A program made the translations under genes and the position numbers. Shown here one piece after another: positions 3,044 to 64,000 of a DNA stretch of 64,000 nucleotides (positions are counted from its first letter, which is position 1; every line of letters begins with the position of its first letter). The notes under the pieces are model-generated. The model worked only from the letters and a program-made list of their open reading frames with translations, had not been told where the DNA came from and did no database searches. Source of the stretch: an uncultured Latescibacterota bacterium (GTDB taxonomy: Bacteria > Latescibacterota > UBA2968); assembly GCA_958295785.1 (NCBI GenBank), contig OY282377.1:4032896-4096895 (forward strand), in the 5' to 3' direction.

Positions 3044-3119
3044 GACCTATCCCCCTAATCTCCCTTCCCAACAGGGATGGGGAACACATCTTCCGTTGCA
3101 GGGAGAGGTCCCATAAACC

Positions 3120-3158
3120 AAGAGACCGGGTTTTCAAAACTCGGTCTCTTTTTTTTTT
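3120..3158 (+). terminator. Rho-independent terminator after receptor 1
   Basis: AGAGACCG pairs with CGGTCTCT, extended by GTTTT/AAAAC, and is followed by ten T residues. It is 76 bases after the stop codon. Almost the same hairpin follows receptor 2, so the terminator was duplicated with the gene. Confidence 0.85.
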
Positions 3159-3170
3159 CGTCAATTATCG

Positions 3171-3176
3171 TATAAT
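3171..3176 (+). promoter_or_regulatory. Perfect -10 hexamer before receptor 2
   Basis: TATAAT lies just after the terminator of receptor 1 and 20 bases before the ATG of receptor 2. No clear -35 box is present because the upstream position falls in the terminator T-run. The spacing would give a very short leader carrying the AAGGAG ribosome site. The same motif recurs at 5873-5878, where a MITE-like element abuts it. Confidence 0.35.
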
Positions 3177-3195
3177 ACATATAAGGAGTCCTCCC

Positions 3196-11259: not shown

Positions 11260-14200
11260 ATGAACCGTTGCACCATCCCAACCAAACTGACCACCTGCAT
11301 TTTCGCGTTGCTCTGCCTCGCGTCTGTCGGGTGGGCTTCGCCGCAACCATCCGCAGAGGACAATGTGCATTTCTGCAAAGTTCTCGATTACGAAGACATG
11401 CGCGCACGCGATAGCCTCTACGCCGCACGCAAGCAGGCGTTTAACCTGAACGTTGGCGAACCTCGCACGGTGCGGATGATCTACTTCTTGCCCAATGACC
11501 GGCCGTTTCGCCAAGAAGTGGTCGATTCGATGAAAACGACGATCCGTCAGATTCAGACTTTTTTCCGCGAGCAGATGCGCGCAAATGGATACGGGGACAT
11601 GACCTTCCGCTTTGAAACCGACGCAGGGGGCAACCCGATGGTTCATCGCGTAGATGGTCAATACTCCGATAGCCACTATCTTGACCACACATCTGGCACT
11701 GTACTTGACGAGGTTGGACAGGCGTTTGATCTCTCGCTGAACGTCTATCTCATCGTCGTTGACAATAGTATAAATGGAATTGGTCTTGGTGGTGTCAGGC
11801 AGGTGGGAGGAGTGGGCAGTGGCGGTAGAAATGGTGGCTATGGGTTGGTTCCAGGCGGATTTAGCTTTTTTACAGCAGCACATGAACTTGGACATGCCTT
11901 TGGCTTGTGGCACGATTTCCACAGTGGTACGTACATTATGTCGTATGGTTCGGGACCGTATCTGTTATCGGCATGTCATGCCGAATTTTTGTCCGTGCAT
12001 CCCTACTTCAATCTCTCTATACCAGATGGAGATACACCGCCGCCAACAGTCGAACTCATTTCATCGCCTCTATATCCGGCAGGCTCAAAAAACGTTTCTG
12101 TCCAACTCAGAGTGAGCGATCCAGATGGACTTCACCAAGTGCTCCTATTCGTTAGAACAAAAAAACCACACCCCGCCGTCGGAAGTCTTGAAGTGAAGGC
12201 GTGTCGGGGATTGAATGGCGAAAGAGATGCTGTGGTTCAATTCGATTATGATGGCGTTGTTCCGTCTGATGGCAAGACGAGTCTTTTGAATCTCGACGAT
12301 TACTGGATTACTCTCGAGGCAGTTGACATTTTTGGAAATGTGGGGAGGACTACAGTAGAGGTAACTTGCGGGAACTGTCCTATAACGCTGGCAAAAATCT
12401 CAGGCGATAACCAGCGAGGAGCATCAGGGGAAGCACTGACGAACCCGTTTGTCGTTGAAGTGAGGGATAAAAACGGTGTTGTCGCTGGTTTTCCGGTTAG
12501 ATTTACCGTCACCGCAGGCGATGGAAAACTCAGCGGGCGGTTCAGTGGTGAGAACGCAACAACCGATGCCAATGGCAGGGCGCAAAGCACATTGACGCTT
12601 GGAGACTATTCGGGCACAAACACTGTTGAGGCGGCATCTGTCGCTGGCCTTAAGGTGGCCTTCAGTGCCGTGGGGGTTGGAACGCCTACGCCGCCGATTG
12701 GGAGCGATTATCAGACATGGCATTTACCCGCAGGGGCTATCGCTCGCTTGGGAAAAGGAAGAATTCAGGAAGTCGCGTTTTCGCCTGATGGTTCACTCCT
12801 CGCTGTGGCAAGTAGCTTTGGCATTTGGCTTTATGACGCGGCGACCTCTCGTGAACTCGCGCTACTCCTTGGGCATACGAGTGAGGTCTTGTCAGTTTCG
12901 TTTTCGCCCGATGGTAGCACCCTCGCTTCAGGGTCTTATGATGGCACGGTCAAGTTGTGGGATGTGGCAACGAGACGGAACATCGCCACGCTCAGGGGGC
13001 ATACGAGTGCGGTCTGGTCAGTTTCGTTTTCGCCCGATGGTTCAACGCTTGCATCTGGGTCAAGAGATAACACGGTCAAGTTGTGGGATGTGGCAACGAG
13101 ACGGAACATCGCCACGCTCAGGGGGCATACGAGTGCGGTCTGGTCAGTTTCGTTTTCGCCCGATGGTTCAACGCTTGCATCTGGGTCAGATGATAATACG
13201 GTCAAGTTGTGGGATGTGGCAACGAGACGGAACATCGCCACGCTTGAGGGGCATACGAGGTGGGTCAGATCAGTTTCGTTTTCGCCCGATGGTTCAACGC
13301 TTGCATCTGGGTCATGGGATAACACGGTCAAGTTGTGGGATGTGGCAACGAGACGGAACATCGCCACGCTTGAGGGACATTCGGGTTCGGTCGAATCAGT
13401 TTCGTTTTCGCCCGATGGTAGCACCCTCGCTTCAGGGTCAGATGATGGCACGGTCAAGTTGTGGGATGTGGCAACGAGACGGAACATCGCCACGCTTGAG
13501 GGGCATACGAGGTGGGTCAGATCAGTTTCGTTTTCGCCCGATGGTTCAACGCTTGCATCTGGGTCATGGGATAACACGGTCAAACTGTGGGATGTGGCAA
13601 CGAAGAGATGGAACTTCTTTACACATACAGGGGTCGCCGGAAGAGTTTCGTTTTCGCCCGATGGTTCAACGCTCGCATCAGGGTCATGGGATTACGCGGT
13701 CAAGTTGTGGGATGTGGCAACGAGACGGAACATCGCCACGCTTACAGGGCATAGGGGTATTGTCAGATCAGTTTCGTTTTCGCCCGATGGTAGCACCCTC
13801 GCATCAGGGTCAGATGATGGCACGGTCAAGTTGTGGGATGTGGCAACGAGACGGAACATCGCCACGCTCGAGGGGCATACGAGTGATGTCTTTTCAGTTT
13901 CGTTTTCGCCCGATGGTAGCACCCTCGCATCAGGGTCAAGAGGTGACAAGGTCAAGTTGTGGGATGTGGCAACGAGACGGAACATCGCCACGCTCGAGGG
14001 GTATAGGCATAATGTCACTTCAGTTTCGTTTTCGCCCGATGGTAGCACCCTCGCATCAGGGTCTTATTATCGCACGGCCAAGTTGTGGGATGTGGCAACG
14101 AGACGGAACATCGCCACGCTTGAGGGGCATACGAGTAGTGTCATTTCAGTTTCGTTTTCGCCCGATGGTTCAACGCTTGCATCTGGGTCAAATGATCACA

Positions 14201-15114
14201 CGGTCAAGTTGTGGGATGTGGCAACGAGACGGAACATCGCCACGCTTGAGGGGCATAGGAATTGGGTCTATTCAGTTTCGTTTTCGCCCGATGGTTCAAC
14301 GCTTGCATCTGGGTCATGGGATAACACGGTCAAGTTGTGGGATGTGGCAACGAGACGGAACATCGCCACGCTCAAGGGGCATACGAGTGCTGTCATTTCA
14401 GTTTCGTTTTCGCCCGATGGCAGCACCCTCGCATCAGGGTCATGGGATTACACGGTTCTGCTGTGGGATATGTCGCCGTATATCACGCCGCTCACCTCCT
14501 TTTCACTTTCTCTGGATGGAGATGGCGCAGCGGGCGATCAAGCGGTGACAACGCTCGATGTTTCGCCCGGGGCGGTTGCGACCATTCAGGTCTTTGGCAG
14601 AGGGATTCGGCAGGCCGACGGTATTTCTGCGCGTTTTGAATACGATTCAGCGCAGGTGGCTTACGAGGGCTTTGACGCGGGCGGTCTTTTGCCCAATGCA
14701 CAGGTGCTTGCCGTGCCTTCAACGAATCCAACGGCTGTCGAGATCAATCTCGTCTCTTTTGGCGGGCAAGCCACAGCCGATAGGGGCATGGTGGGCACTC
14801 TTCGCTTTCGCAAAATGAGCGCGTTTTCCGGCACGACGCTTCGGTTGGTGCGCGCCGAACTCGGCCGAGGAACGCAACGCGAGCGCGTGACGTTTGCCGA
14901 TACCCACATCACCTTACAACCCGCGGCACTGACGCCCGACTTCAATGGCGATGGCAGAGTTGATTTCGCCGACTTTGTGTTGTTCACCGCGCAATTCGGA
15001 CTGCGTCAAGGCGACCCGGGATACGATGCGTGGTACGATCTGGATGGCGATAGCACCATTGGCTTCGGCGATTTCCTGATATTCGGCCGTGCCTTTGGTC
15101 GGGAAGAGTCATAA
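11260..15114 (+). CDS. Secreted metalloprotease-like / Ig-like / 14-blade WD40 / cohesin / dockerin protein
   Basis: A 1284-residue secreted, multi-domain protein. A signal peptide ends near SVGWA. A zinc-protease domain follows with the full ligand motif AAHELGHAFGLWHD near residue 207. Next come an Ig-like region (near 265-375) and a Big-1-type Ig domain (near 380-475). Fourteen WD40 blades span about residues 500-1075, enough for two seven-bladed propellers. A cohesin-like domain (near 1080-1222) and a type I dockerin with two Ca2+ loops (DFNGDGRVDFADF and YDLDGDSTIGFGDF) end the protein. The last thirteen blades are near-identical except at a few surface positions. The start MNRC follows GAGGA; an ATG four codons earlier is possible. 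Its job may be adhesion or extracellular complex formation with proteolysis; that is inference. Confidence 0.88.
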   Translation: MNRCTIPTKLTTCIFALLCLASVGWASPQPSAEDNVHFCKVLDYEDMRARDSLYAARKQAFNLNVGEPRTVRMIYFLPNDRPFRQEVVDSMKTTIRQIQTFFREQMRANGYGDMTFRFETDAGGNPMVHRVDGQYSDSHYLDHTSGTVLDEVGQAFDLSLNVYLIVVDNSINGIGLGGVRQVGGVGSGGRNGGYGLVPGGFSFFTAAHELGHAFGLWHDFHSGTYIMSYGSGPYLLSACHAEFLSVHPYFNLSIPDGDTPPPTVELISSPLYPAGSKNVSVQLRVSDPDGLHQVLLFVRTKKPHPAVGSLEVKACRGLNGERDAVVQFDYDGVVPSDGKTSLLNLDDYWITLEAVDIFGNVGRTTVEVTCGNCPITLAKISGDNQRGASGEALTNPFVVEVRDKNGVVAGFPVRFTVTAGDGKLSGRFSGENATTDANGRAQSTLTLGDYSGTNTVEAASVAGLKVAFSAVGVGTPTPPIGSDYQTWHLPAGAIARLGKGRIQEVAFSPDGSLLAVASSFGIWLYDAATSRELALLLGHTSEVLSVSFSPDGSTLASGSYDGTVKLWDVATRRNIATLRGHTSAVWSVSFSPDGSTLASGSRDNTVKLWDVATRRNIATLRGHTSAVWSVSFSPDGSTLASGSDDNTVKLWDVATRRNIATLEGHTRWVRSVSFSPDGSTLASGSWDNTVKLWDVATRRNIATLEGHSGSVESVSFSPDGSTLASGSDDGTVKLWDVATRRNIATLEGHTRWVRSVSFSPDGSTLASGSWDNTVKLWDVATKRWNFFTHTGVAGRVSFSPDGSTLASGSWDYAVKLWDVATRRNIATLTGHRGIVRSVSFSPDGSTLASGSDDGTVKLWDVATRRNIATLEGHTSDVFSVSFSPDGSTLASGSRGDKVKLWDVATRRNIATLEGYRHNVTSVSFSPDGSTLASGSYYRTAKLWDVATRRNIATLEGHTSSVISVSFSPDGSTLASGSNDHTVKLWDVATRRNIATLEGHRNWVYSVSFSPDGSTLASGSWDNTVKLWDVATRRNIATLKGHTSAVISVSFSPDGSTLASGSWDYTVLLWDMSPYITPLTSFSLSLDGDGAAGDQAVTTLDVSPGAVATIQVFGRGIRQADGISARFEYDSAQVAYEGFDAGGLLPNAQVLAVPSTNPTAVEINLVSFGGQATADRGMVGTLRFRKMSAFSGTTLRLVRAELGRGTQRERVTFADTHITLQPAALTPDFNGDGRVDFADFVLFTAQFGLRQGDPGYDAWYDLDGDSTIGFGDFLIFGRAFGREES
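12895..14480 (+). repeat. Thirteen near-identical 126-bp WD40 blade repeats
   Basis: The repeats begin with GTTTCGTTTTCGCCCGATGG and occur every 126 bases (12895, 13021, 13147, 13273 and so on). One unit, starting at 13525, is 6 bases shorter and carries a divergent tail. Each encodes VSFSPDGSTLASGS, then three variable residues, then a KLWDVATRRNIATL core, then GH and a short variable stretch. A fourteenth, diverged blade precedes them at 12775. Confidence 0.95.
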
Positions 15115-15197: not shown

Positions 15198-15269
15198 ATG
15201 TCTGATCTGTGGCGTGAAACATTCGTCAAACCCTGTTTGGTGACGACCAACCCATCGGCGTCCAGTTGA
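15198..15269 (+). pseudogene. Remnant of the small YgiT-like gene, deletion-fused
   Basis: After GGAGG the frame begins MSDLWRETFV, identical to the intact gene at 21230, then jumps to sequence that in the other copy lies about 460 bases further on (KPCLVTTNPSASS) and stops after 23 codons. An internal deletion therefore removed most of the gene and the following intergenic DNA. Confidence 0.7.
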
Positions 15270-15293
15270 CCAATAACACCGGAGGGAAGAACC

Positions 15294-15533
15294 ATGCAAA
15301 GCGTGTTGCATCGCAAAATGACCGTTTTACCTGGCGGCAAAATCGAAATCGTGGATCGGGAACTGTCCGCAGGAGAGTCGGTGGACGTGATTGTGCTATA
15401 TCCCACTTCCCCAGCGTCAAAGCGGCGGTCTGCTGTCGATATTTTCGCCGAGGCACCCGGGCAATGTCTCTTCAAGACCGCCGCGGATGTTGAAGCCTAT
15501 CTTCAAGACGAGCGTGAAGCATGGGAGAACTGA
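15294..15533 (+). CDS. Antitoxin of a PIN-type toxin-antitoxin pair (copy 1)
   Basis: A 79-residue protein almost identical to the one at 21802, preceded by CCGGAGGGAAGAACC. It begins MQSVLHRKMTVLPGGKIEIV, a small beta-rich fold seen in cyanobacterial-type antitoxins next to PIN toxins. Its stop overlaps the toxin start by 13 bases. Its toxin partner is destroyed by an IS630-like insertion, so it may persist as a solitary antitoxin able to neutralise the intact second copy's toxin. Confidence 0.7.
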   Translation: MQSVLHRKMTVLPGGKIEIVDRELSAGESVDVIVLYPTSPASKRRSAVDIFAEAPGQCLFKTAADVEAYLQDEREAWEN

Positions 15534-15833
15534 CGCTACCGAATACCGGGCCAATCTATCTCGACGCCAGTGGATTCATTTATAGCTTGGAGCGCATTGA
15601 ACCCTACTGCACACAACTCGAACCAATGTGGCGACAGGCTCAGGCGGGGCAGTTTGTCATTGTGAGCAGTCACTTGGTCGTATTGGAAACATGGGTCAAG
15701 CCCCTGCGTGAAGGCGACATCGCCCTTGAACAGTCTTTTCGTGAGCTACTCTATGCCCGTGAAGTGCAGTTGATCCCGGCAACCCTCTCTCTGTGGGAAC
15801 GCGCCGCACGTCTGCGTGCCGCGACAGGCTTAA
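15521..15833 (+). pseudogene. PIN-domain toxin, 5' part only (IS-interrupted)
   Basis: The frame matches the intact toxin at 22029 for its first 104 residues (IYLDASGFIYSLERIEPY, VVLETWVKPLREGD). It is cut at the codon after TGL by the terminus of an IS630-like element. The lost part carries the last acidic active-site residues (TPDALHA and TNDRDFRR in copy 2), so this fragment cannot be an active nuclease. The 3' remainder is not found on the other side of the insertion. Confidence 0.85.
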
Positions 15834-16674
15834 TACTCTGTAAATTAAAAAATTTGGAATTTCAATTATTTCAAGGAGGCGTTCGCATGCCCAAACAACA
15901 CGTCCAACTCACCCCCACAGACCGAGACACTTTGACCGCCTTGATCACCAAAGGCGACCAAAAAGCCCGAATCTACAAACGCGCCTTGGGCTTGCTTGAA
16001 CTTGACCGAGGCAAAACCTACACCCAAGTGGCTCAAACCCTCGGCATGACCGGGCAGACCCTGAGTCATTGGGCAAAGAAATACCGCACCCTCGGCTTGG
16101 ATGGCCTCAAAGATGCCCCGCGGCCAGGACGCCCGGTGGAGATGACCGGCAAGCAACGGGCCCAAATCACCGCCTTGGCCTGTTCAACCCCCCGGCAGGC
16201 CATGGCAGGTGGACGTTGCGCCTCTTGGCGGATCACTGCGTGGCATTGGGCTCTTGTGAGCATCTCTCACACACGCATGTCAAGACGAGTCTCAAAAAAG
16301 TGACCAAAGAACATTTTGGTGCAAGACAATCTCAACACGCATACGCGCCATGCCTTCTATCGTTCCTTGCCGGCCGATGAGGCGTTTGCCCGCGCGCAGA
16401 AGTTTGAGTTCTTCTTTACTCCCAAGTCGGCGAGTTGGTTGAACATGATCGAGATCGAATTTTCGGCTCTGGCGCGAGGAGGTTTGAATAGGCGCATTGC
16501 GACGCAGGCGGAACTGCGCCGGGAAGTTTTGGCCTTTTTCCAGGACCGAGAGGCCAAGGGCATTCCCTTGAATTGGCAGTTCACTTTGCCCAAGGGGAGA
16601 GACAAGATGAATGCCCATTATCAACGCATTTATCCAGACAACTCAAAACTTAAAATAAGTTAATTTACAGAGTA
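15834..16674 (+). mobile_element. Decayed IS630-family insertion sequence
   Basis: The ends are inverted repeats TACTCTGTAAATTAA and TTAATTTACAGAGTA, and the outermost bases are TA as expected for this family, which targets TA. It is 841 bp, shorter than usual because the transposase gene has lost its middle. It sits in the PIN toxin gene on the left but in unrelated DNA on the right, so a deletion followed insertion. Confidence 0.8.
15887..16663 (+). pseudogene. IS630-type transposase with frameshift and internal deletion
   Basis: An ATG after AAGGAGGC starts MPKQHVQLTPTDRDTLTALI, followed by a helix-turn-helix (YTQVAQTLGMTGQTLSHWAK). Near 16195 the frame shifts and continues as GHGRWTLRLLADHC and HTHVKTSLKKVTKEHF. 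It then joins directly to VQDNLNTHT, the second catalytic Asp region, and SWLNMIEIEF with the catalytic Glu. The segment with the first Asp of the DDE triad is missing, so it is not functional. Confidence 0.85.
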
Positions 16675-20435: not shown

Positions 20436-21146
20436 ACGCATATAGGTGGTGTGGTCAGATCATTTACGTTTTCGCCCGATAGCAGAACCCTCGCTTCAGC
20501 TTCAGAGTCATATCAAGATGTCAAATTGTGGGATGTGGCAACGAGACAGAACATCGCCACGCTTATGCATATAGGTGGTGCGGTCAGATCATTTACGTTT
20601 TCGCCCGATAGCAGAACCCTCGCTTCAGGGGCTCATGATGGCATGGTCAAGTTGTGGGATGTGGCAACGAGACGGAACATCGCCACGCTTGAGGGGCATA
20701 CGGATTGGGTCAATTCAGTATCGTTTTCGCCCGATAGCAGAATCCTCGCATCAGGGTCATGGGGGGATGACACGGTCAAGTTGTGGGATGTGGCAACGAG
20801 ACAGAACATCGCCACGCTTACGGGGCATTTGGATGGGGTCAAATCAGTTTCGTTTTCTCCCGATGGTTCAACCCTCGCTTCAGGGTCATGGAATGGCATA
20901 ATTCTGCTGTGGGATATGTCGCTGTATATCACGCCGCTCCCCTCCTTACCACCCGCGGTACTGACGCCCGACTTCAACGGCGATGGCCGGGTTGATGTCG
21001 CCGACTTTCTGTTGTTCACCGCGCAATACGGATTGGGTCAAGGCGACCCGGGCTATGACGCGCAGTACGATCTGGATGGCGATGACAAAATTGGCTTCGG
21101 CGATTTCCTGATATTCCGCAGTGCCTTTGATCGGGAAGGATCATAA
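20436..21146 (+). pseudogene. Truncated WD40-dockerin paralogue
   Basis: About 236 codons encode four to five WD40 blades (SFTFSPDSRTLASA, LWDVATRRNIATLEGH) followed directly by a type I dockerin (DFNGDGRVDVADFLLF, YDLDGDDKIGFGDF). The signal peptide, protease, Ig and cohesin domains of the protein at 11260 are absent, and the 5' end abuts a Uma2 fragment in another frame. The ATG at 20382 has no ribosome site and no signal peptide, so export and function are doubtful. Confidence 0.75.
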
Positions 21147-30822: not shown

Positions 30823-31995
30823 ATGCAAATCAATTCTCGGCGCATTGAACGCCTGCCGCCATACATTTTTCACGAGGTGAATGCCCGCAAAATGCACCTG
30901 CGGCGCAAGGGCGTGGATATTATCGACCTGGGCATGGGCAATCCGGACCAGCCCACGCCGCCGCATATTATTGACAAACTCGCCGAAGTTGCCCGCGATC
31001 CCAAAGCGCACGGCTATTCGCCATCGGCGGGCCTTCCCGCGCTGCGGCGGGCGATTTGCCGGCATTACAAACGCCGGTTTGCCGTCGATCTCGATCCGGA
31101 AACAGAGGCCATTGTCACCATTGGCTCGAAAGAGGGGCTGGCGCATATTTGCCTGGCCCTCCTCGATCCGGGCGACCTCGCCATCGTGCCCAATCCTGCC
31201 TATCCCCTGCACCTCTACGGCGTTGCAATAGCCAATGGCAACGTGCTCAGCCTGCCCTTGCGCGCGGAAAAAGAATTTGTGCCCGATCTACACATGGTCT
31301 CGCGGGAGTTGTGGCCCAAGCCCAAAGTCATGATTTTCAACTTCCCGCACAACCCCACCACGGCCACGGTCGATCTTTCTTTTTTTCAAGAACTTGTGGC
31401 TTTTGCCCGGCGTCAAAATATCATCGTCATCCACGACATGGCCTATTCGGACATCGCGTTTGACGACACCGAAGTGCCGAGTCTGTTGCAGGTCAAAGGC
31501 GCGAAAGAAATCGGGGTCGAATTTTACACCATGTCCAAATCCTACAACATGGCCGGTTGGCGCGTGGGCTTCTGCTTGGGCAATCCCGAGGTCATCAAAG
31601 CCCTGTCCACCATCAAAAACTACTACGACTACGGCGTCTTTACCCCGATCCAAGTCGCGGCCATTGCCGCGCTCGACGGCCCGCAAGACTGCGTGCGGAA
31701 AGCGGCGGCCATGTATCAAAGCCGCAGGGATACGCTGATAGGCGGTCTCAACCGCATCGGGTGGCCGGTCGACAAACCCAAAGCGTCGATGTTTGTGTGG
31801 GCGCCCATTCCAGAATCCCATCGGCATCTCGGCTCGATGAACTTCGCCCTCAAACTCATGGAAGAAGCCGAAGTCGCGGTGTCTCCCGGCATTGGGTTTG
31901 GCGACATGGGCGAGGGGTATGTACGCATCTCTCTGGTCGAAAACGAACACCGAATCCGCCAAGCCGTGCGAAATGTCAAACGCGCACTGTTTTGA
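30823..31995 (+). CDS. alaC: Class I/II aminotransferase, AlaC-like
   Basis: A 390-residue PLP-dependent aminotransferase of fold type I. PLP-site landmarks are MGNPDQPTPPHI, NFPHNPTTATVD, and the Schiff-base Lys in YTMSKSYNMAGWRVGF; the carboxylate-binding Arg is in [10 protein letters not shown]. It most resembles AlaC/YfdZ glutamate-pyruvate aminotransferases. ATG 30823 has a GAG ribosome remnant; 30811 is an alternative four codons earlier. Its last 46 codons plus 105 downstream bases are duplicated at 34096, on the far side of the ATPase cassette. Confidence 0.88.
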   Translation: MQINSRRIERLPPYIFHEVNARKMHLRRKGVDIIDLGMGNPDQPTPPHIIDKLAEVARDPKAHGYSPSAGLPALRRAICRHYKRRFAVDLDPETEAIVTIGSKEGLAHICLALLDPGDLAIVPNPAYPLHLYGVAIANGNVLSLPLRAEKEFVPDLHMVSRELWPKPKVMIFNFPHNPTTATVDLSFFQELVAFARRQNIIVIHDMAYSDIAFDDTEVPSLLQVKGAKEIGVEFYTMSKSYNMAGWRVGFCLGNPEVIKALSTIKNYYDYGVFTPIQVAAIAALDGPQDCVRKAAAMYQSRRDTLIGGLNRIGWPVDKPKASMFVWAPIPESHRHLGSMNFALKLMEEAEVAVSPGIGFGDMGEGYVRISLVENEHRIRQAVRNVKRALF

Positions 31996-32103: not shown

Positions 32104-33396
32104 ATGATTACGCAAATCGAGGTCGGAGGCTATCGGCTTCTCGACGAGTTTGAGGCCGATCTCAAATCGCTGACAGTGGTTATAGGCGCGAATGCCGTTG
32201 GCAAGAGCACGCTACTCAATTGCCTGCAACTGATTGGCGAGTGTAGCGCGGTGCCGGTAAATACCGCAATGGGGTTGCATGGGGGGGCAGCATCTCTTCT
32301 TACAGTCGGGAACGAGAAGAGCCAGTTGACTTGGAAAATCACTTTTCATAAGCCCGCTACATGGGATGCTTTTCCATTGAAGCAGGGGGATTCACTGGTG
32401 TACGAGGTCGTTCTCCAAGCCGATGCACAAAACCAGATGCACCCGCAATACGAGGTTCTCAGAAATCGAGAGCCAGCACCAGGGCATGCGGGACCCCTCA
32501 AGTTTTTGGAGGCAACCCCGTATCACCAACACATATTTGACAGAGAACAACGCCGATTGATACCGTTTGACGAAGTGCAATCTTCTTCTGATGTCGTCCG
32601 CGAGTCCGATTCGACGGAAGCCACCTCGATGGGCAGTCTGCTACCACCCGGCCGACAAGAGGCCGCGTTGCTGCTTTCGCAAATCCGCTTCTTCAACGAG
32701 TTTCCCGTTCCTTCTTCGGTACGCGTTCTATTGGCGAACATAATGTGCTATCCGGGTTTCGATGTGACGCAGTCTTCCGCGCTCCGCACCAAGGCCGCCG
32801 CTATCGAGCCGGTTGCAACATTATCGGCTAACGGCGACAATTTGGGCACTGTGTTGCACGAAATCCTGACCCGATACGATTTCCGATCAGCAGCAGAGGA
32901 GTTGCGCGATTTTCTGCGCGTAGCGTACCCCGCATTTGAGGAAATTCATTGCGATACCGCCTATGGAACGCCACCGCAAGTGCTCGTCCGGGTGCGAGAG
33001 CAAGGCATGTCTCGCTCTATGGAGATGTGGGAGCTGTCGGACGGCATGCTACGCTTCTTGTGCTTGGCGACGGTGCTGCTAAATCCACTTCTGCCGCCGC
33101 TGGTGGCAATCGACGAACCAGAATTGGGCCTGCATCCCGGGCTGTTGCCGATTGTCGCCGAGATGATCAAGACGGCGGCGGAGCGCACCCAAGTGCTGGT
33201 GACGACGCACAGCCCAGACCTGCTCAACTGCTTCGACATAGCCGATATGGCCGTGATGGCGCGGAATGCAGATAACGCAAAGGTCGCTTGGCATCGTCCC
33301 GCGAACCGCGAGACGCTTGTGCCAATGCTCGACAACATTGCCGGCGAAACCCTTGGCGACCTGCACCGCTCCGGCGAACTGGAGGCCGGCGTATGA
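32104..33396 (+). CDS. AAA/ABC-type ATPase of a two-gene defence-like cassette
   Basis: A 430-residue ATPase of the OLD/RecF-like (AAA_21) type. Walker A is VIGANAVGKST at residues 26-36; the ABC-signature region is ELSDGMLRFLCLATVLL; Walker B is LVAIDEPELGLHPG, and VLVTTHSPDLLNCF carries the switch His. It begins right after repeat A with AAAGGCAATAGAT before the ATG and overlaps the next gene by 4 bases (ATGA). In OLD, Gabija and PARIS systems such ATPases sense phage and license a Toprim nuclease; by analogy that is the likely role. Confidence 0.85.
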   Translation: MITQIEVGGYRLLDEFEADLKSLTVVIGANAVGKSTLLNCLQLIGECSAVPVNTAMGLHGGAASLLTVGNEKSQLTWKITFHKPATWDAFPLKQGDSLVYEVVLQADAQNQMHPQYEVLRNREPAPGHAGPLKFLEATPYHQHIFDREQRRLIPFDEVQSSSDVVRESDSTEATSMGSLLPPGRQEAALLLSQIRFFNEFPVPSSVRVLLANIMCYPGFDVTQSSALRTKAAAIEPVATLSANGDNLGTVLHEILTRYDFRSAAEELRDFLRVAYPAFEEIHCDTAYGTPPQVLVRVREQGMSRSMEMWELSDGMLRFLCLATVLLNPLLPPLVAIDEPELGLHPGLLPIVAEMIKTAAERTQVLVTTHSPDLLNCFDIADMAVMARNADNAKVAWHRPANRETLVPMLDNIAGETLGDLHRSGELEAGV

Positions 33397-34058
33397 AGGT
33401 GTGGATTTTTGTAGAAGGGAAATCGGACGTTCAGGCACTGTCGGCATTGTGGGGAGGCTGGAAGCAAAACCTCGGCGCGAAAGGCTGGGGCCTTCAGCTA
33501 ATATCCCTTCAAAACAAGCCCAACTATTTCAGAAAAATTGGACCCCGAGCGAGTGAGAAGTTGGTGCATGATACACGCGATCTCGTTGTCGGCTTACCCG
33601 ATCTCTACCCAAATCGAGACTATGCGAATACGGCGTACAAGCACGACAATTTGAAAGAACTTCAAGACGTGCAAATGCGACTCGTAAAACAAAATTTGCC
33701 ACAAAAGTTCAGACCGGCTGACGTCGAAAGCCACATCGCACGTTTTTATGCCAGCGCGTTGAAACACGACCTGGAAGTGCTGCTCCTCGCCGCGACGAGT
33801 CAACTTCAGTCCCGACTCAAGATGCGGAACAGGCCCGGCGGTTGGCGGCATCCCCCGGAAGATCAAAACCAAAACAAGCCCCCCAAAAAAATAGTTGAAG
33901 AACTCTTTCAAAAAAATCTCAAACGGGCCTACCGCGAAATTACGGATAGCGATGCCATTCTCGGAAATGCAGACCTGCAAGAGGTGGCGAAACAGTGCCC
34001 GGCATTCCGCGCTGTGATCGATTGGATTGGTGCGGAGACCGGCGTACCTGGGTACTGA
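33393..34058 (+). CDS. DUF4276-like Toprim-type protein, partner of the ATPase
   Basis: A 221-residue protein. The start [18 protein letters not shown] has the EGxxD motif of Toprim folds, with further acidic residues in [11 protein letters not shown]. The middle part ([20 protein letters not shown]) matches the DUF4276 layout. Translation is coupled to the ATPase by ATGA. By analogy with OLD-type nucleases and PARIS (ATPase AriA plus Toprim AriB), it would be the nuclease or effector. Its stop is 5 bases before a copy of the argJ 5' end. Confidence 0.75.
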
Positions 34059-34532: not shown

Positions 34533-35498
34533 TTGGATAGCAGGGTTATCGATCTTTGTGAGATCGTATCCGAGTCAATTGGTGAAGCCATTCCATCTGA
34601 CAAAAAAAAGATGGATTTCAAAAAAGAATTTGAAAAAATTAGCAGGACAAGAGATAGTGGTACTGGTCGTGGCGGTGGCAAACTGCAAAGAGACGCCGTT
34701 TGTACAAGAGGCCGTGGAGGTAAAGCCCCTTTTTCAAATAGGAACCTGAGATGGCATCCATTGATCGTTGCCGAAAACAGGCCAAATTTTGCAAAGGAAA
34801 TAGAGAGAATAGAGATTGGGGGAAGCGATGAAAGTCAAATCTTGATTTTTGTCATCAAAGACAAAATGGGACGAGAAATCAAATTTCCATCAGACAAAGT
34901 GCATGAGATGCCGGAAAGATTTGTCTCGCTTCCCAAGCATTGGCATCCTCATATAGATACATTGAAAAACTGGTCGGATACATTGTGGACACAAAACTCA
35001 TGTGTGATTTCGGCACTTGAAGCTTGCGACTGGTGGGATTCTGTGGAAACTTATGCCATTCTTGGCATCTCTATGGCTGTTGAATTTTATGGCGCAGACT
35101 TGAACAAACTTTACGGGAAGATAACAAGATTGTTGAGAAATCAGAAAGTTGATGGAAGAATTACTTTGCCAACAGATGATTTCCCAGATGGAGATGATGA
35201 CGTTTTGCAATGTCCCTTGTGCCGCCAGAAGATTTCAAAAGACTTGGAAGACTTCAGAAATTCCACGAGAGAAGAAACTTGGCAACCGGGTTGGCGTACC
35301 TCAAAAAAGACAGAAGGCGATGATTCAAGCATCCAAATAATGCATGTCAATCCCCTTGTAGAAAGCGAGATAAGACATAAAGCTCACAACGTCAAATATG
35401 GTCATAGGTGGTGCAATGTCGCGATGACCGACCATTCGCTTGACGAAACTTTGGACTTCATGGAATTTGTCGTTCGCGCTCATCATAGGAGTAAGTAA
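34533..35498 (+). CDS. HNH-type restriction endonuclease candidate (BstXI-like), start possibly frameshifted
   Basis: A 321-codon frame from TTG. The C-terminal third has CPLCRQKI, then HVNPLVESEIRHKAHNVKYG and HRWCN, a treble-clef HNH-like metal site with Cys and His. The place before a fused modification/specificity gene supports a restriction enzyme; it reminds me of R.BstXI, without certainty. A better start is GTG 34490 after CGGAGGT (MASGRTISASF), but it is one frame off: a run of seven T near 34520 would need six to join it to DSRVIDLCEIV. So the gene may be switched off, mis-sequenced, or start at the TTG. Confidence 0.6.
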   Translation: MDSRVIDLCEIVSESIGEAIPSDKKKMDFKKEFEKISRTRDSGTGRGGGKLQRDAVCTRGRGGKAPFSNRNLRWHPLIVAENRPNFAKEIERIEIGGSDESQILIFVIKDKMGREIKFPSDKVHEMPERFVSLPKHWHPHIDTLKNWSDTLWTQNSCVISALEACDWWDSVETYAILGISMAVEFYGADLNKLYGKITRLLRNQKVDGRITLPTDDFPDGDDDVLQCPLCRQKISKDLEDFRNSTREETWQPGWRTSKKTEGDDSSIQIMHVNPLVESEIRHKAHNVKYGHRWCNVAMTDHSLDETLDFMEFVVRAHHRSK

Positions 35499-37493
35499 AT
35501 GGAATCACCCTATTTGTTTAATCCAGACACATTAAAAACAAAAAGGTTCGTCAGTGTTGCCGATTTGCGTCCGATAAACAATCTGAAGTCCGTTTTCAAA
35601 AAAATAAGAGACTACTGTGCAGGAAATGTGACTGGAATCACGCGAGACGAGAAAATCGCCCAAAATATGATGCGTTTGCTATTTTGCAAAATCTACGACG
35701 AAAAAACGAGTCTGGATATCGTTGAATTTTCCAACCGTCCACGCGAAAGCAACGACTTGCTCCTGTCGAGGATAGAGGTCTTATTTGACAGGGTGAAAGA
35801 AGCCTACCCCGGCCTTTTTAACCCGGAAGAAAAAATAGAAGTGCAACCCAAAGACCTGTCATTTATCGTCTCGACACTGGAAGACTATTCTATTTTGGAC
35901 GCTGACAGGGATGTAATTGGAGATGCTTTTGAGGAATTAATAGGGACTTCGTTCAGAGGTGGAGCGGGACAATTTTTCACACCGAGAAACGTCGTACAAA
36001 TGATGATTGATATTCTTGAACCTAGGGAAGGGGAAAAAATTATTGACCCGGCTTGTGGAAGCGGCGGTTTTCTCGCCTACACATTGAGATATTTTCTTTC
36101 CAGCAACACGAAAAATTTTCACATTGTAGGGATTGACAAAGATGCTTTTCTCGCAAAAATTGCAAAAATTTATCTTTCGCTAATTGGTGATAGCGATTAT
36201 CGCATCTATTGCGAGAACAGCTTGGATAATCCAGCAAAATGGAGAGACGATACGAGAGGGAATATCCGGTGTGGTGAGTTTGACATTGTGCTTACTAATC
36301 CCCCTTTCGGAGCGAAAATCCCAGTTATAGGAAAACAGCTACTAGGGCAGTATCAGCTCGGTCATAGGTGGCGAAAGCAAGGCAAATGGTACAGATCACT
36401 CGAATCGCTCGAGAAACAATCCCCTCAAGTCCTGTTCATTGAGCGGTGTATTCAGTTGCTTCGTGAGGGTGGGCGTTTGGGCATCGTTCTACCGGAAGGT
36501 ATTTTTGGCAATCCTTCGGACAGATATATATGGGAATATGTGAACAGTGTGTGCTCGGTTACCGGAGTTGTAAGTCTCCCCCAAGAAACTTTTCAACCGA
36601 GCACGCATACGAAAACAAGCGTGCTTTTTTTGGAAAAGACGACCATGAGGCGCGATTCGTTGTTCATGGCTATCGCAGGCAGTGTTGGACATAACAAAAA
36701 TGGCAAACCGATCTACAAAGTGGATGCTGAAACCGGCGAAGAAATCCTAGATGACGATATTCCCTCCATCACAAATAATTTTAAAAAAGAAAATGATGGA
36801 GAGAATCGTCTCGGGTTCCAAATCCCGTATTCCGAGTTGAACGAGAGTATTTTTATTCCAGAGTATTACAACCCTGAAGTCCGTAGAGAACTAGAGGATC
36901 TGAAACACAGCGAAAAATACTTTTTGGTTTCAATCGGAGAATTACTTCAAAAAAATATCTTGCAGATTAAAAGAGGTAACGAGATAGGCTCACGCTTTTA
37001 TGGCACGGGGAACGTGCCATTTGTGCGAACCAGCGATATCGTTAATTGGGAAATCAAGTTTGACCCCATTAAAGCAGTGGCAGAGGAAGTGTATGACGAA
37101 TACAAATGCTCCCAAGATATTCGGGAAAGAGATATTCTGTTTGTGAGCGATGGCACATTCTTAATCGGGCGCACCGCTATTGTCACGAGATTGGACTTAA
37201 AAATCATCATTCAAAGTCATCTAAAAAAGATAAGAGTACTGGAGAAAAATTTCATAGATCCATACTACCTGTTTTATCTTTTAAATAGCAAAATTGTAAG
37301 GAAACAGATAGACTCCAAAACCTTTGTACAGGCGACAATATCAACAATCGGAAACAGGCTGGGCGAAGTTGTCCTACCAATCAATAATGACAAAGGGGAA
37401 ATCAGAAAAATCTCAAGCGAAATAGAGTACATCATCTCTAAAAAAGTTGAAGTCAAAGAAAAAACAATGAGGATCATCCAGAACAGTATTTGA
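35499..37493 (+). CDS. Fused N6-adenine DNA methyltransferase and specificity protein
   Basis: A 664-residue protein resembling type I HsdM joined to one HsdS half. An N-terminal helical domain precedes the methylase fold: the SAM motif DPACGSGGFLAYTL near residue 183 and the catalytic NPPF in DIVLTNPPFGAKIP near 265. From about residue 470 a target-recognition-like domain follows (YFLVSIGELL, VPFVRTSDI, DILFVSDG, YYLFYLLNS, ISTIGNRLGEVVLP). It starts directly at the stop of the HNH gene after AGGAG. Together they form a self-contained restriction-modification cassette. Confidence 0.85.
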   Translation: MESPYLFNPDTLKTKRFVSVADLRPINNLKSVFKKIRDYCAGNVTGITRDEKIAQNMMRLLFCKIYDEKTSLDIVEFSNRPRESNDLLLSRIEVLFDRVKEAYPGLFNPEEKIEVQPKDLSFIVSTLEDYSILDADRDVIGDAFEELIGTSFRGGAGQFFTPRNVVQMMIDILEPREGEKIIDPACGSGGFLAYTLRYFLSSNTKNFHIVGIDKDAFLAKIAKIYLSLIGDSDYRIYCENSLDNPAKWRDDTRGNIRCGEFDIVLTNPPFGAKIPVIGKQLLGQYQLGHRWRKQGKWYRSLESLEKQSPQVLFIERCIQLLREGGRLGIVLPEGIFGNPSDRYIWEYVNSVCSVTGVVSLPQETFQPSTHTKTSVLFLEKTTMRRDSLFMAIAGSVGHNKNGKPIYKVDAETGEEILDDDIPSITNNFKKENDGENRLGFQIPYSELNESIFIPEYYNPEVRRELEDLKHSEKYFLVSIGELLQKNILQIKRGNEIGSRFYGTGNVPFVRTSDIVNWEIKFDPIKAVAEEVYDEYKCSQDIRERDILFVSDGTFLIGRTAIVTRLDLKIIIQSHLKKIRVLEKNFIDPYYLFYLLNSKIVRKQIDSKTFVQATISTIGNRLGEVVLPINNDKGEIRKISSEIEYIISKKVEVKEKTMRIIQNSI

Positions 37494-40201: not shown

Positions 40202-40257
40202 CAAAAGCAAAAAGCAACCACCGATGAACGGGCATGAAAAACGGCCAGCTATAACTC
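40202..40257. repeat. Dispersed repeats (family B and AAAGCAACCACCGATGAAC unit)
   Basis: AAAAGCAACCACCGATGAAC here recurs in near-identical form at 50490-50516, and the following ACGGGCATGAAAAACGGCCA is family B as at 9079 and 54424. The region is intergenic before accA. Confidence 0.6.
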
Positions 40258-50462: not shown

Positions 50463-50792
50463 TCGGTCAACCCCGCTTCCATCCTGCCCAAAAGCGAAAA
50501 GCAACCACCGATGAACACCGATAAAAGACAAGGCAGATGACTGTATTCAGTCCTGGCAAGATGAGGCCGAAACATTGCTGTTTTCAAACCACAGTGCCAA
50601 TTTGATTGAAGAATGGCTGGATGATACGGCGGATGAAGTTACGAAACCGGAGGGAACTGCGTGCCCATCCAAGATCTGCCGAGATACCCCATCGCTACCA
50701 TCCGCACCGGCCAATTCATACCCGGCGAGCGCGTAATCTAGTCAGGCGGTTTCGATCATCACCACCCGTCGAATCGGCAAAGGATTCACGCT
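50463..50792. other. Intergenic stretch with repeat and possible gene fragments
   Basis: The AAAGCAACCACCGATGAAC repeat is at 50490-50516. Two short unsupported frames follow: ETLLFSNHSANLIEEWLDD near 50565, and a 26-codon GTG frame after CGGAGGG (PIQDLPRYPIATIRTGQF). They look like truncated ends of genes; I cannot name them. Confidence 0.35.
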
Positions 50793-51653
50793 ATGGAAAT
50801 GTCCTTGTTGCAAACAGCTATCGCGGAAATAAAATCCGAACTCGAGCAGACAATCAGGACAGCAATCTATAAGGGCAAATACTACGGAAATGGACAACGG
50901 GCTAAAGAGGCTCTCATTAGAAGCCAGAATCTCATCATGAAAATTCACGAAGTCGTCAAAATCAGTTTGGATCGAGAACTCAAAAAATTTACCAAACACC
51001 ATACAATTCATCCACCTTTGGGCGAAAGAAAACCAGAACTCGCGCTTTCGGGATTCATCAAGCGCAAAAAGCAGGATATCGTTGTCCTTTTTGGCAGTGC
51101 TGGACAGGCTTCAGAAATGATCAAAGAGGGGCCTTTGGCAGGTGCTATGAACGCGATTGGCAAAGAGCAATCCGAAAATGCGATTGTGATTGGCGTTCGC
51201 AGCCAACTCAGCAGTGTAGAAAAAAATTTCGACACGCTTATGGAAAGAGCATTTGCCGAAACGCTAAATCTGCGCCTCAGACTTCCCAAATTGGTGATGG
51301 GTGAAGTCTATCTGCTTCCCGTGGTCGAATATGACGATCAAGCGATGAAGCAGAATCGCATCGCCTGGAAAATGGGCCACACGCCGGTAGAAAAATTCAT
51401 AAAAACTTTCTTGGGCATTACGCACCGCGATATAGACGCCGACACGGGCGACCTCTACAAATACGAACGCTCTGTGTTAATCCTCGCAGACTTTCGGCAA
51501 TCTCCGCCACAGATTTTCTCAACGCTTGAGGAACTAAAAAAAGGCGGTTATGTTTCCCTCCATTTTGAGGCCAATTTCGATCTTCTATCACCGGTAAATT
51601 TCGCAACCGATATTGTCGATATGCATCGAAAACGCCATTTGTACCTGTATTAA
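50793..51653 (+). CDS. Putative restriction endonuclease, convergent with a DNA methyltransferase
   Basis: A 286-residue protein after AAAGGA. I do not recognise a family. An N-terminal helical part is followed by IVVLFGSAGQASE, ENAIVIGVRSQLSSVEKNFD, MGEVYLLPVVEYDDQAM and SVLILADF; the alternating acidic/hydrophobic segment from 125 to 180 could be a PD-(D/E)xK-type core. Its stop is 2 bases from that of a DNA methyltransferase on the other strand, the usual arrangement of a type II restriction-modification pair, and that context is the main basis for the call. Confidence 0.5.
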   Translation: MEMSLLQTAIAEIKSELEQTIRTAIYKGKYYGNGQRAKEALIRSQNLIMKIHEVVKISLDRELKKFTKHHTIHPPLGERKPELALSGFIKRKKQDIVVLFGSAGQASEMIKEGPLAGAMNAIGKEQSENAIVIGVRSQLSSVEKNFDTLMERAFAETLNLRLRLPKLVMGEVYLLPVVEYDDQAMKQNRIAWKMGHTPVEKFIKTFLGITHRDIDADTGDLYKYERSVLILADFRQSPPQIFSTLEELKKGGYVSLHFEANFDLLSPVNFATDIVDMHRKRHLYLY

Positions 51654-51655
51654 AT

Positions 51656-53581
51656 CTACATTGTCGTTCCCAATTCCCGTCCGCAAACCTCCTCAATGTC
51701 TTTGCTGTTGAGCTTATAGCGAGCCTCCAAATATTCGTTCGCGTCAAATTTTGGCAACTCTAAAAACGCTGTCATTTCCCTTTCTGTCATGTCGATAATA
51801 CCAACCCGTTCAATAAAATTCTTCTGATAGCATTGGTAGTCGCCTTCAATTTGAAAGCTCGTCAGTTTCGCGTAGTAATTCATCATTCTGCTATTGAGCA
51901 CCTTTTCGAGTACTTCAATGGTCAGCTTACTGCTGAATAGAGAATCATCTCTGATGGATACGGCATAGCCATTGCAGAAGAGTTGGTCACTCCTGTCGAG
52001 CATAAATTGGGGGAACTTGCTAAAAGTCTTGGTGAGAAGCTTCGGGCCTCTCGCCTCCCTGCCTTGGGTTCTTCCCCATGCGTACCATCCTTCGTAACTT
52101 TTCTTGCCCTTGTCTCGGCTTTTTAAGAGATTGCGGCATTTCCACAGATAGGCATAAGCTTCTGGAAATTTCGCCTTTATCTCTTTCTCCTGTATCAAGC
52201 GATATTTTCCTTTTATTTTTTGGTACGGAAAAATAATTCTCAAATCATTGTGTTCCAAATCCTCCGCGCTATTTAAGGCCGCAATTTTGACCGCAGGGCG
52301 CGTGATGCCGAGTTCTACCCGGTGCGTTTCCCGGTTCAAAGGATTTGCAGTACAATACTGTTCGTCTCTTCTGCGTACCAAAAAAATCGCATCTTTCAGG
52401 GTTGCAAACCCGACTTTAATCGAAGCGACCACACCAAGGGGGTTTCCAGTTGATTCAATTATCTTGAGATTTTCTAAATGATTGCCTTTTGCAAGACGCC
52501 ATTTGTCGGCTTTTAGATCTGAAAAAGGAATGGCTGAAAATGTGGCTTTGTTGAGACTGTTGGCGCGAACCCGTTTCAGAGCGTCAAATTCAAAGCTCTT
52601 TTTCTTTTCGTTTCCAAGAAAGACCAAGCAAGTATACGCGCTTGCTTGCCTGAAAACTTTATGGTGGCCGAAATCTATGATTCTGCGGATACATTGCTCG
52701 TCCTGTAAGTATTGTCTAACCCCTTTGCCCGCCAGAGAAGTATACAGATTGTTTTGGGTGATGATTGCCAGACATCCTTGTGGCGCGAGGAGCCTGTGTC
52801 CGGCAAGTAAAAAGAGAAGTGCCAAGCTGAAATTGCCATTCGCATAACCTTTGAATTTTTTCGATAGTTGTGTTCGGTATTTGGCATCGAGATTCTGAAG
52901 TTTAACATACGGCGGATTTGTCGTCACCAGATCAAACCCATTGTCAGCACCTGATATATGCCACAAGTCTTCGGAAGAATCCAACAGGGTATCGCGGCAG
53001 AAAAGGCGCGAGTTTGTTTTAGATGGCTTAAAACCGTGAAGAATCGAGTAAAGTTCGACAAGACAACGCGCATGCTCAATGGCCCAAGGATCATTGTCAA
53101 AACCGAATAGACATTCCGCAAATGCTTTCTCTATAGAAATTTCGCTTTTCAATATTTCCGCTGCTCGAATGAGAAATCCGCCGCTTCCACAAGCGGGATC
53201 GCAAATGAGTGGGGCGTCTTTGCTTATGGACTGACCCATCTGTAAGCCATGTTTTACGAGGTATTCAATGATAAAATCGGGCGTATAAACCGCCCCCTGA
53301 GATTTGCGTCTTTTAGAATCGATCAGAATTTCAAAAATGCTTTCGATGTCTTTTATCGAAAGTCTAAAAATGGACTGATCGAACTTATGCCTGATACGCG
53401 CCACCTCCGTTGTATTCGACGCTTCCAAAAACGCAGCCGCCGAATCGGCCTGTTTTAACTTCGCAACGGGAATTTCGTTGATCTTTGCCCAATGTTGAAG
53501 CAATGCGGCACGAATCGCATTTTCCTCGTAATTTTTGACCAACTTTGCAATTACATCCCGTGCAGTGCGATAATATGACAC
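51656..53581 (-). CDS. N6-adenine DNA methyltransferase (type II/IIG-like)
   Basis: A 641-residue modification enzyme. A helical N-terminus leads to KSQGAVYTPDFIIEYLVKHG, the SAM motif DPACGSGGFLIRAAEIL near residue 160, and the catalytic NPPY in LVTTNPPYVKLQNLD near 225. The C-terminal half is a target-recognition region with an Eco57I-class look (YEGWYAWGRTQG, GPKLLTKTFSKFPQFML). The GTG start has AAAGGAGAAATT upstream; a GTG 12 codons earlier is less likely. It probably protects the host from the convergent nuclease at 50793. Confidence 0.85.
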   Translation of the reverse strand: MSYYRTARDVIAKLVKNYEENAIRAALLQHWAKINEIPVAKLKQADSAAAFLEASNTTEVARIRHKFDQSIFRLSIKDIESIFEILIDSKRRKSQGAVYTPDFIIEYLVKHGLQMGQSISKDAPLICDPACGSGGFLIRAAEILKSEISIEKAFAECLFGFDNDPWAIEHARCLVELYSILHGFKPSKTNSRLFCRDTLLDSSEDLWHISGADNGFDLVTTNPPYVKLQNLDAKYRTQLSKKFKGYANGNFSLALLFLLAGHRLLAPQGCLAIITQNNLYTSLAGKGVRQYLQDEQCIRRIIDFGHHKVFRQASAYTCLVFLGNEKKKSFEFDALKRVRANSLNKATFSAIPFSDLKADKWRLAKGNHLENLKIIESTGNPLGVVASIKVGFATLKDAIFLVRRRDEQYCTANPLNRETHRVELGITRPAVKIAALNSAEDLEHNDLRIIFPYQKIKGKYRLIQEKEIKAKFPEAYAYLWKCRNLLKSRDKGKKSYEGWYAWGRTQGREARGPKLLTKTFSKFPQFMLDRSDQLFCNGYAVSIRDDSLFSSKLTIEVLEKVLNSRMMNYYAKLTSFQIEGDYQCYQKNFIERVGIIDMTEREMTAFLELPKFDANEYLEARYKLNSKDIEEVCGRELGTTM

Positions 53582-53704
53582 GTTAGAATTTCTCCTTTCT
53601 CGATCCGAGTTGTCCACTCTCTGAGGGCAGAAAGATATGGATTTTTAGATCATTTTCAATGCGGATTCTGATGCCGCTCGCAATTCTCTCACGTCTCGCC
53701 TTCC

Positions 53705-62494: not shown

Positions 62495-62785
62495 TTATTC
62501 CGATGGTTCATCCCAATCTTCAGCAATGAGCAATAGCCCCGATTCTTGAACCACTCTGCGTTTGGTTTCACCAAAAGTTTGAATGTGAAACCCTTGTGTG
62601 CTGTTGTCGGATGCTATGATCAAAAGACCCAAATCGGGTGCATTGCGCCGAACATACTCAATGGTTTTTTCTCGTGTTCTCCTGTTGACAGTGCCGACAA
62701 AAACATTTGGACGTGGTTCAACAAACCATCGTTTTAGTAGCCCGCGAATCGCAGGTGGCGTATCATTGGCAACAATTACAGTCAT
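62495..62785 (-). CDS. cas2: CRISPR-associated endonuclease Cas2 (type I-E)
   Basis: A 96-residue Cas2e, structural partner of Cas1 in spacer integration. MTVIVANDTPPAIRGLLKRW and PNVFVGTVNRRTREKTIEYV are clear type I-E features. It overlaps cas1 by 4 bases (ATGA) and lies next to the leader. Confidence 0.95.
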   Translation of the reverse strand: MTVIVANDTPPAIRGLLKRWFVEPRPNVFVGTVNRRTREKTIEYVRRNAPDLGLLIIASDNSTQGFHIQTFGETKRRVVQESGLLLIAEDWDEPSE

Positions 62786-63615
62786 GCCAAAAGTTCCTCT
62801 ATATCTTCTGGAATTTTTTGTAAAAGTTTCTGTTTTTCAATGCAATTTTTGAGATGTGCCAAGACTTGTTTTCCACTGGACTCGGGATTGATGCTCAAAG
62901 TTTGAAAGGCCGCAACAAGCGTTGTCTTGGGCTTGTAAATGTCGGCAATATCAAATACAAAAGGCAATGTGCCGCTGCTGTGTATAAACCCCAATTGCGG
63001 CAAATATCCCATAGAACAAATAGTGGCTGTACACAAAGCATAGAGCGAAGCATTTGCGGCAGAAATGGCGCGATTGATATTGTCTGCCAAAGACCAATTT
63101 CTTGGATTATAGTTGCGACCTTTCCATGTTACACCGTATTTGTGTCCCATGTCTGCATACAAGTTCCGGACGCGCACGCCTTCCATCCCGCGCAGTTCTT
63201 TAATGGCCTTTGACTTTACATCTACATTTGGAAATCGCCTTGCAAACATTCGGCGGGCAATTTCGGTTCGTTTCTTTCGAGACGCATGTGCCGCTGCTTG
63301 CTTTCTTGCGCGGGCATTATCATGAGTTGGCGTTACCCCAAACGCATAAAACCGCATCCCTTCTTCACCAATCCAACAAATTGGCGTATTGGAATCGCTA
63401 CACACTTTTATAGCTGCATGTGTAACCGATGTTCCCGGGCCGAGCATAAGCGTACTCAACGTTGCCACTGGAATACGCATAATTGTTCGGTCAGCACCAA
63501 TCCATTTCACGCTCGAATCATCGACTTCCAAACGGCCGTGCTCCAGATAGAGAGGTGTCCAGCGGTCTTTTGCTAGCGCGAGGGTTTCAAGTGGGGGTTT
63601 CTCAAAAACAGGCAT
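62782..63615 (-). CDS. cas1: CRISPR-associated integrase Cas1 (type I-E)
   Basis: A 277-residue Cas1e integrase. DRWTPLYLEHGRLEVDDSSV marks the N-terminal beta domain, and the catalytic residues are probably Glu in GMEGVRVRNLYADM, His in LGFIHSSGTLPF and Asp in FDIADIYKP. It starts 2 bases after the cas5e stop and overlaps cas2, so the three are one transcription unit. Confidence 0.96.
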   Translation of the reverse strand: MPVFEKPPLETLALAKDRWTPLYLEHGRLEVDDSSVKWIGADRTIMRIPVATLSTLMLGPGTSVTHAAIKVCSDSNTPICWIGEEGMRFYAFGVTPTHDNARARKQAAAHASRKKRTEIARRMFARRFPNVDVKSKAIKELRGMEGVRVRNLYADMGHKYGVTWKGRNYNPRNWSLADNINRAISAANASLYALCTATICSMGYLPQLGFIHSSGTLPFVFDIADIYKPKTTLVAAFQTLSINPESSGKQVLAHLKNCIEKQKLLQKIPEDIEELLA

Positions 63616-63617
63616 AT

Positions 63618-64000
63618 CTAAAAATCTCCTTCAGGCGAATCCTCTACACAAACCCGTCGTACTGAAAATTCGCGTGTGGCAAAACTGATCGGGCAATCGG
63701 GCAACGTATCCGTACCGGACGCAAAATTCTCGACATCCGTTATACGCCGCTGAATCTCACCTTTGGAAATCTGCTTGAGATGGTTGACAGCATCTTCCCG
63801 CGTATCAAAAATGCCCTGTGCAATCGGTGATGCGGGAATGCAAGCTTTGCGTCCAAGCCATAAGCCCCACTTTGGATTTCGCAAAGCCAAATCACATCGT
63901 TTCAACAACTCATTATCTCCCATCAACAATACGCCAAATTTTGCATCGGCTAAATATTCGCGATAGGTAATGGCTGCATTCTTGGCCCGTGATCCAGACG
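63618..64000 (-). CDS. cas5e: CRISPR-associated Cascade subunit Cas5e (partial, runs off the window)
   Basis: The C-terminal 126 codons of Cas5e/CasD, open to the window edge. ITYREYLADAKFGVLLMGD, LALRNPKWGLWLGRKACIP and the Arg-rich end EFSVRRVCVED are typical of this crRNA 5'-handle-binding subunit. In most type I-E operons cas6e lies between cas5e and cas1; here cas1 follows at once. Confidence 0.85.
   Translation of the reverse strand, partial: SGSRAKNAAITYREYLADAKFGVLLMGDNELLKRCDLALRNPKWGLWLGRKACIPASPIAQGIFDTREDAVNHLKQISKGEIQRRITDVENFASGTDTLPDCPISFATREFSVRRVCVEDSPEGDF

Follow-up and report, generated by a model that had tools for sequence, protein, structure and literature searches.

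The question raised by this locus is whether a 286-residue protein, encoded beside a DNA methyltransferase gene in an uncultured Latescibacterota bacterium, is the nuclease of a restriction-modification (R-M) pair, and whether it is a new one. The preliminary description of the window, that is, the whole stretch of 64,000 nucleotides that was analyzed, placed the reading frame of this protein two bases from a convergent N6-adenine methyltransferase gene, and both the coordinates and the stop codons were confirmed here. It further held that the protein belonged to no family it knew and was probably a new or diverged restriction enzyme. Type II R-M systems are a common bacterial defense against phages. 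We conclude that the two genes, here called R and M, very probably form a type II R-M system that is intact and was gained by horizontal transfer: the family matches of both proteins, their co-occurrence, the linkage of their genes in two arrangements, the low GC content and the evolutionary constraint were computed, and cleavage by R, a specificity common to R and M, and a role in phage defense would be expected from the families. The features of the locus, in window coordinates, are the following.

50463..50792, no strand: left junction, intergenic stretch from gatB to R
50793..51653, forward strand: R, putative type II restriction endonuclease, 286 aa, PADLOC PDLC03558 family
51654..51655, no strand: two-base gap between the tail-to-tail stop codons, from the ORF coordinates
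51656..53581, reverse strand: M, N6-adenine DNA methyltransferase (N6_Mtase/Eco57I type), 641 aa from GTG 53581
53592..53598, reverse strand: AAAGGAG, probable ribosome-binding site for GTG 53581, read from the sequence

Gene pair and protein families

The R frame runs from ATG to TAA, with AAAGGA upstream of the ATG. In the gatB-R junction, a 41-nt stretch (50489-50529) is 83% identical to positions 40202-40242 of the window. The longest frame of M (51656-53617) opens at GTG 53617; the likely start is GTG 53581, since the AAAGGAG sequence lies upstream of it at Shine-Dalgarno distance.

The assignment of M is straightforward. It matches the Pfam families Eco57I (PF07669, E 5.6e-26) and N6_Mtase (PF02384, E 1.2e-24), both above the cut-off, and contains the SAM motif DPACGSGGF together with the NPPY motif, as an N6-adenine methyltransferase should. 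Its best PADLOC model is the MTase_II model PDLC03335 (E 4.5e-112, residues 22-642). The match of M to the specificity domain TaqI_C reaches 19.0 bits, below the Pfam cut-off of 26.5, and the target-recognition part of the protein is therefore diverged. The methyltransferase domain also matches adenine methyltransferases in the PDB, namely M.BseCI (7qw5) and 7lni/8cxz, with E-values from 4e-21 to 5e-21, but this similarity is restricted to about residues 95-348 of M and leaves the specificity parts unmatched.

R was found to match the PADLOC REase_II model PDLC03558 with an E-value of 1.2e-67, and the match spans most of the protein (residues 25-281 aligned with positions 29-284 of the 293 in the model). 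Since this model covers R, the protein is not unassigned, and the view that it falls outside any known family has to be given up. No significant family was detected for R in Pfam (best E 0.04, with 14.5 bits versus the cut-off of 28), NCBIfam or PHROGs, and sequence searches of the PDB with R, a sequence profile and three relatives gave no match. R thus belongs to a family that has been modelled before; neither a solved structure nor a Pfam or NCBIfam family independently backs its nuclease function. Two plasmid-encoded relatives score higher against PDLC03558 than R itself (8.3e-88 and 1.5e-89), and in the copy of PADLOC-DB used here the model bears no enzyme name. Those parts of the literature on PADLOC that were accessible contain no statement on how its RM models were seeded, so the nuclease label of R may rest on predicted enzymes. 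Of the original proposal, the restriction enzyme stands, favored by the REase_II model and by the partnership with M described below; its being new or diverged finds no support, given the good fit to an existing model.

Relatives, partnership and acquisition

Two relatives of R were identified in genome contigs, both from the same class as the window genome (G000, in which the window is C1:4032896-4096895): one in G045 (L001, 72% identity over 286 aa) and one in G034 (L002, 73% over 202 aa, where the alignment is stopped by the contig end). Three more, with 38-42% identity, occur among 72,556 plasmid records, all in Firmicute hosts (Limosilactobacillus oris, Lactobacillus sp. D1501 and Pontibacillus sp. 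ALD_SL1). No relative was detected among 50,697 phage records or in the viral contigs scanned.

R therefore occurs in 3 of the 64 genomes of the phylum searched, the window genome counted (2 of the 63 others), and in none of 14 control genomes. When the best candidates of each genome, up to 16, were scored, M at E<=1e-40 was found in the same three of the 64 genomes and again in none of the 14 controls; 16 candidates were reached in eight genomes, including G000 and G034, where a weaker-ranked methylase may have been missed. Identical sets of three genomes would arise by independent placement with a chance of 1 in 41,664, relatedness being ignored in this estimate.

The genes are also physically linked. 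R and M are convergent in the window, in G045, where the gap is 29 bases, and in G034, whose R gene, interrupted by a contig break, adjoins M. On two Lactobacillaceae plasmids the pair is head-to-head: in CP028327, M occupies 627-2384 of the reverse strand and R 2674-3570 of the forward strand, and in NZ_CP125630 (circular, 16,341 bases) M begins near base 1 of the forward strand and the divergent R lies at 15220-16122 of the reverse strand. The best PADLOC model of both plasmid methylases is PDLC03335. Counting the window, separate R and M genes adjoin each other in five of the six R loci, in two gene orders, and the methylase is co-inherited with the nuclease, with two kinds of exception: the Pontibacillus plasmid and M-like methylases that occur without R. 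On the former (L009, NZ_CP062975.1), the annotated neighbors of R (3995-4840) are a transporter and a helicase, and no match to PDLC03335 was detected in a search of the whole 898-kb plasmid. The latter are seen in plasmids, where M at E<=1e-30 is present in six records, two of them among the three R records. Methylase families are usually wider than their R-M pairs, and the family of M is likewise wider than this pair, since M-like methylases exist without R and PDLC03335 at the loose threshold of E<=0.001 has matches in 7 of the 14 control genomes. One further methylase, from Hymenobacter, also has PDLC03335 as its best PADLOC model; the product of the neighboring gene was considered as a diverged R and rejected, having no PADLOC match.

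That R is the restriction enzyme of an R-M pair is well supported, because it matches a REase_II model, shares the same 3 of 64 genomes with M (at E<=1e-40), and adjoins M, in a different arrangement, on two plasmids from another phylum.

Purifying selection maintains both genes in intact form. Between R and its relative in G034, dN is 0.163 and dS 1.37 over 202 codons; between R and the relative in G045, pN is 0.157 and pS 0.852, and the corresponding values for M are 0.255 and 0.884, the latter being saturated. The R frame is not a chance one, since it is conserved in the relatives and its nonsynonymous divergence is much smaller than its synonymous divergence.

The GC content of R (45%) and M (44%) is low compared with 57-59% in gatA, gatB, the DUF2064 gene and the gene that follows, and none of the ten remaining genus members gave a match to R. 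The flanking genes are nearly universal there: the DUF2064 gene is present in all 11 genomes and gatB in 10. In the six sister genomes where the interval between gatB and the DUF2064 gene is readable (G001, G002, G003, G006, G007 and G008; L032-L034, L036, L037 and L040), it spans 3.6-12.1 kb occupied by other genes, differs among genomes in size and gene set, and contains no match to R or M. All six intervals contain genes that we take, by our own recognition and with no model, to be sulfatases; those of G008 and G006 also carry ATPase- and transposase-like genes, and G006 has, in addition, an ImmA-like gene and, at C5:73262-73522, a partial match to the methylase family PF01555. The interval might be a defense hotspot; defense-like genes occur in two of the six sister intervals, not in most.

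Candidate active site and alternative readings

The preliminary description suggested a PD-(D/E)xK core for R. An AlphaFold model of R, built from three sequences, has a pLDDT of 36; in this low-confidence model a strand (130-137) is followed by a helix (146-163), an order like that in part of the PD-(D/E)XK core. In six aligned R sequences, one of them partial, the invariant residues include Q94-D95, R136-S137-Q138, K144, D147, E151, R152 and E156. The canonical acid of the (D/E)XK motif is absent from all six, the position reading GVR, GIR, NVR or NIR by our own placing of motif III. On this placing R lacks the canonical site but may have a variant one; with a model at pLDDT 36 and no PDB sequence match, the PD-(D/E)XK core is a conjecture.

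Our guess is that the active site of R might be a variant of PD-(D/E)XK, with D95 as motif II ('QDIVV'), R136 in a later strand ('GVRSQ'), and either E151 or E156 of the following helix as the second acid; because the structural model has a pLDDT of 36, this guess rests on the six aligned sequences. Migration of the acid is known in enzymes of the Cfr10I/NgoMIV type, and R may have some resemblance to BamHI. As far as the accessible part of the relevant study goes, migration of the active-site lysine to this helix has been described in PD-(D/E)XK nucleases (PMC1913061), and R likewise has an xDxxx-like motif, a basic residue in a later strand and invariant acids in the next helix; in the nucleases described there it is the lysine that moves, whereas in R it would be the acid. 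We regard it as a tentative possibility that R represents a restriction family whose active site is unmatched among solved structures belonging to that family (Asp95, Arg136 replacing the lysine, and Glu151 or Glu156 supplied from the helix), or that it has another nuclease fold.

R might not be, or might no longer be, a sequence-specific nuclease, and could instead serve as an accessory of the methylase or belong to a remnant pair that methylates without cutting. The structural model gives neither fold nor active site with confidence (pLDDT 36), and the absence of the canonical acid in six of six sequences fits such a loss; nevertheless, this is improbable for a protein that matches a REase model over almost its full length, has intact relatives and is under strong purifying selection, and an accessory role in particular is disfavored because the Pontibacillus plasmid record has R without such an M. 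Very improbable is that R works independently of M, for example as a stand-alone or modification-dependent nuclease, with their adjacency being incidental: the Pontibacillus plasmid without a PDLC03335-type methylase and the M-like methylases without R would agree with this, but not the presence of M beside R at five of six loci in two gene orders or the identical genome sets, and the Pontibacillus absence concerns the plasmid.

Under the preferred reading, a type II R-M system, M would methylate adenine at N6 within a short recognition site and so mark the DNA of the cell, as its family suggests, and R would be a separate enzyme that cuts the same site when it is unmethylated, as its family and its partnership with M suggest. 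Incoming phage or plasmid DNA would thereby be destroyed. Horizontal transfer would have brought the pair into the variable stretch from gatB to the DUF2064 gene, where purifying selection keeps both genes intact. Such a pair is in itself ordinary. It provides an intact and testable member, with relatives on plasmids of lactobacilli, of a restriction family for which no sequence relative was found in the PDB.

Methyltransferase load and palindrome avoidance in the genome

More than the pair itself, the genomic context is of interest, in that methyltransferases are far more numerous in G000 than in its ten sister species and palindromic hexamers are broadly avoided. The genome has 32 matches to PF02384, 15 to PF00145, 52 to PF01555 and 7 to PF02086; the ranges in the ten other members of the genus are 3-13, 0-8, 4-16 and 2-8, respectively, so that G000 exceeds all ten for the first three families and shows no excess for PF02086. 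After matches of these four DNA-methyltransferase families were merged within 2.5 kb, G000 has 79, 67 and 95 loci at E<=1e-10, 1e-20 and 1e-3, respectively, versus 26, 21 and 31 loci at the same thresholds in G008, which apart from G000 is the only genome of the genus assembled in one contig. We consider 67-79 loci, or about 12-14 per megabase, a fair range, because some matches are fragments or contain stop codons and the weak ones perhaps belong to other methyltransferases. The accessible part of a metagenomic study gives 2.48-5.08 R-M systems per megabase in sponge metagenomes versus 0.18 in seawater (PMC5099237), these being counts of systems and not of loci, and a second study, in the part available, reports R-M systems of types I-IV from sponge-associated Latescibacterota (PMC12993501). 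G000 would be well suited to asking what number of R-M systems a single cell can accommodate.

In an 800-kb sample of G000 (40 stretches, L052-L091), the median observed-to-expected ratio (O/E) of palindromic hexamers is 0.55, and 29 of 60 fall below 0.5, versus 0.3% of 3,968 non-palindromes. The corresponding figures for 800 kb of G008 are a median of 0.65 and 17 of 60 palindromes, versus 0.1% of 3,986 non-palindromes; in the other two carriers of the pair, for which a lower limit on the expected count was used, 24 of 60 (G034) and 3 of 44 (G045) are below 0.5. Among the most avoided hexamers in G000 are TTATAA, GTGCAC, TGCGCA and CGATCG, with O/E of 0.02-0.05. Two palindromes are scarce in each of the three carriers, where their expected counts are at least 20: AAGCTT (O/E 0.28 in G000, 0.25 in G045 and 0.18 in G034) and TTCGAA (0.25, 0.33 and 0.10, respectively). 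Both are also low in G008 (0.39 and 0.49), which lacks the pair. No single hexamer stands out in G000, and the breadth of palindrome avoidance prevents the assignment of any site to this R-M pair. The avoidance in G000 may be the result of long exposure to numerous type II enzymes.

As to the window itself, at least four defense modules had been counted in it, and the models and repeats bear this out: a HEC-01-like pair, a second methylase with a weakly REase-like neighbor, the R-M pair, and a type I-E CRISPR-Cas system. The HEC-01-like pair (32104-34058, forward strand) consists of an AAA_21 ATPase and a DUF4276 protein that match PADLOC HEC-01A (6.9e-56) and HEC-01B (3.6e-07), and on either side of it, at 31855 and 34096, lie the copies of a 247-nt direct repeat, 99% identical to each other. 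The second R-M candidate (34533-37493, forward strand) comprises a 664-aa methylase with matches to PDLC03318 (E 7.9e-82) and PF02384, preceded by the gene of a 321-aa protein that weakly resembles the REase_II model PDLC03475 (E 4.6e-06) and has no Pfam match at 0.001. The CRISPR array extends from 58886 to about 62300 with a 61-nt period and 55 copies reported; next to it, at 62782-63929 on the reverse strand, are Cas1e and a partial Cas5e-like match, assigning the system to type I-E. Finally, tandem 126-nt coding repeats, which we take by our own recognition to be WD-like, occupy 12745-14573 and 20442-20952, and a block at 15225 is repeated at 21733 with 99% identity over 300 nt.
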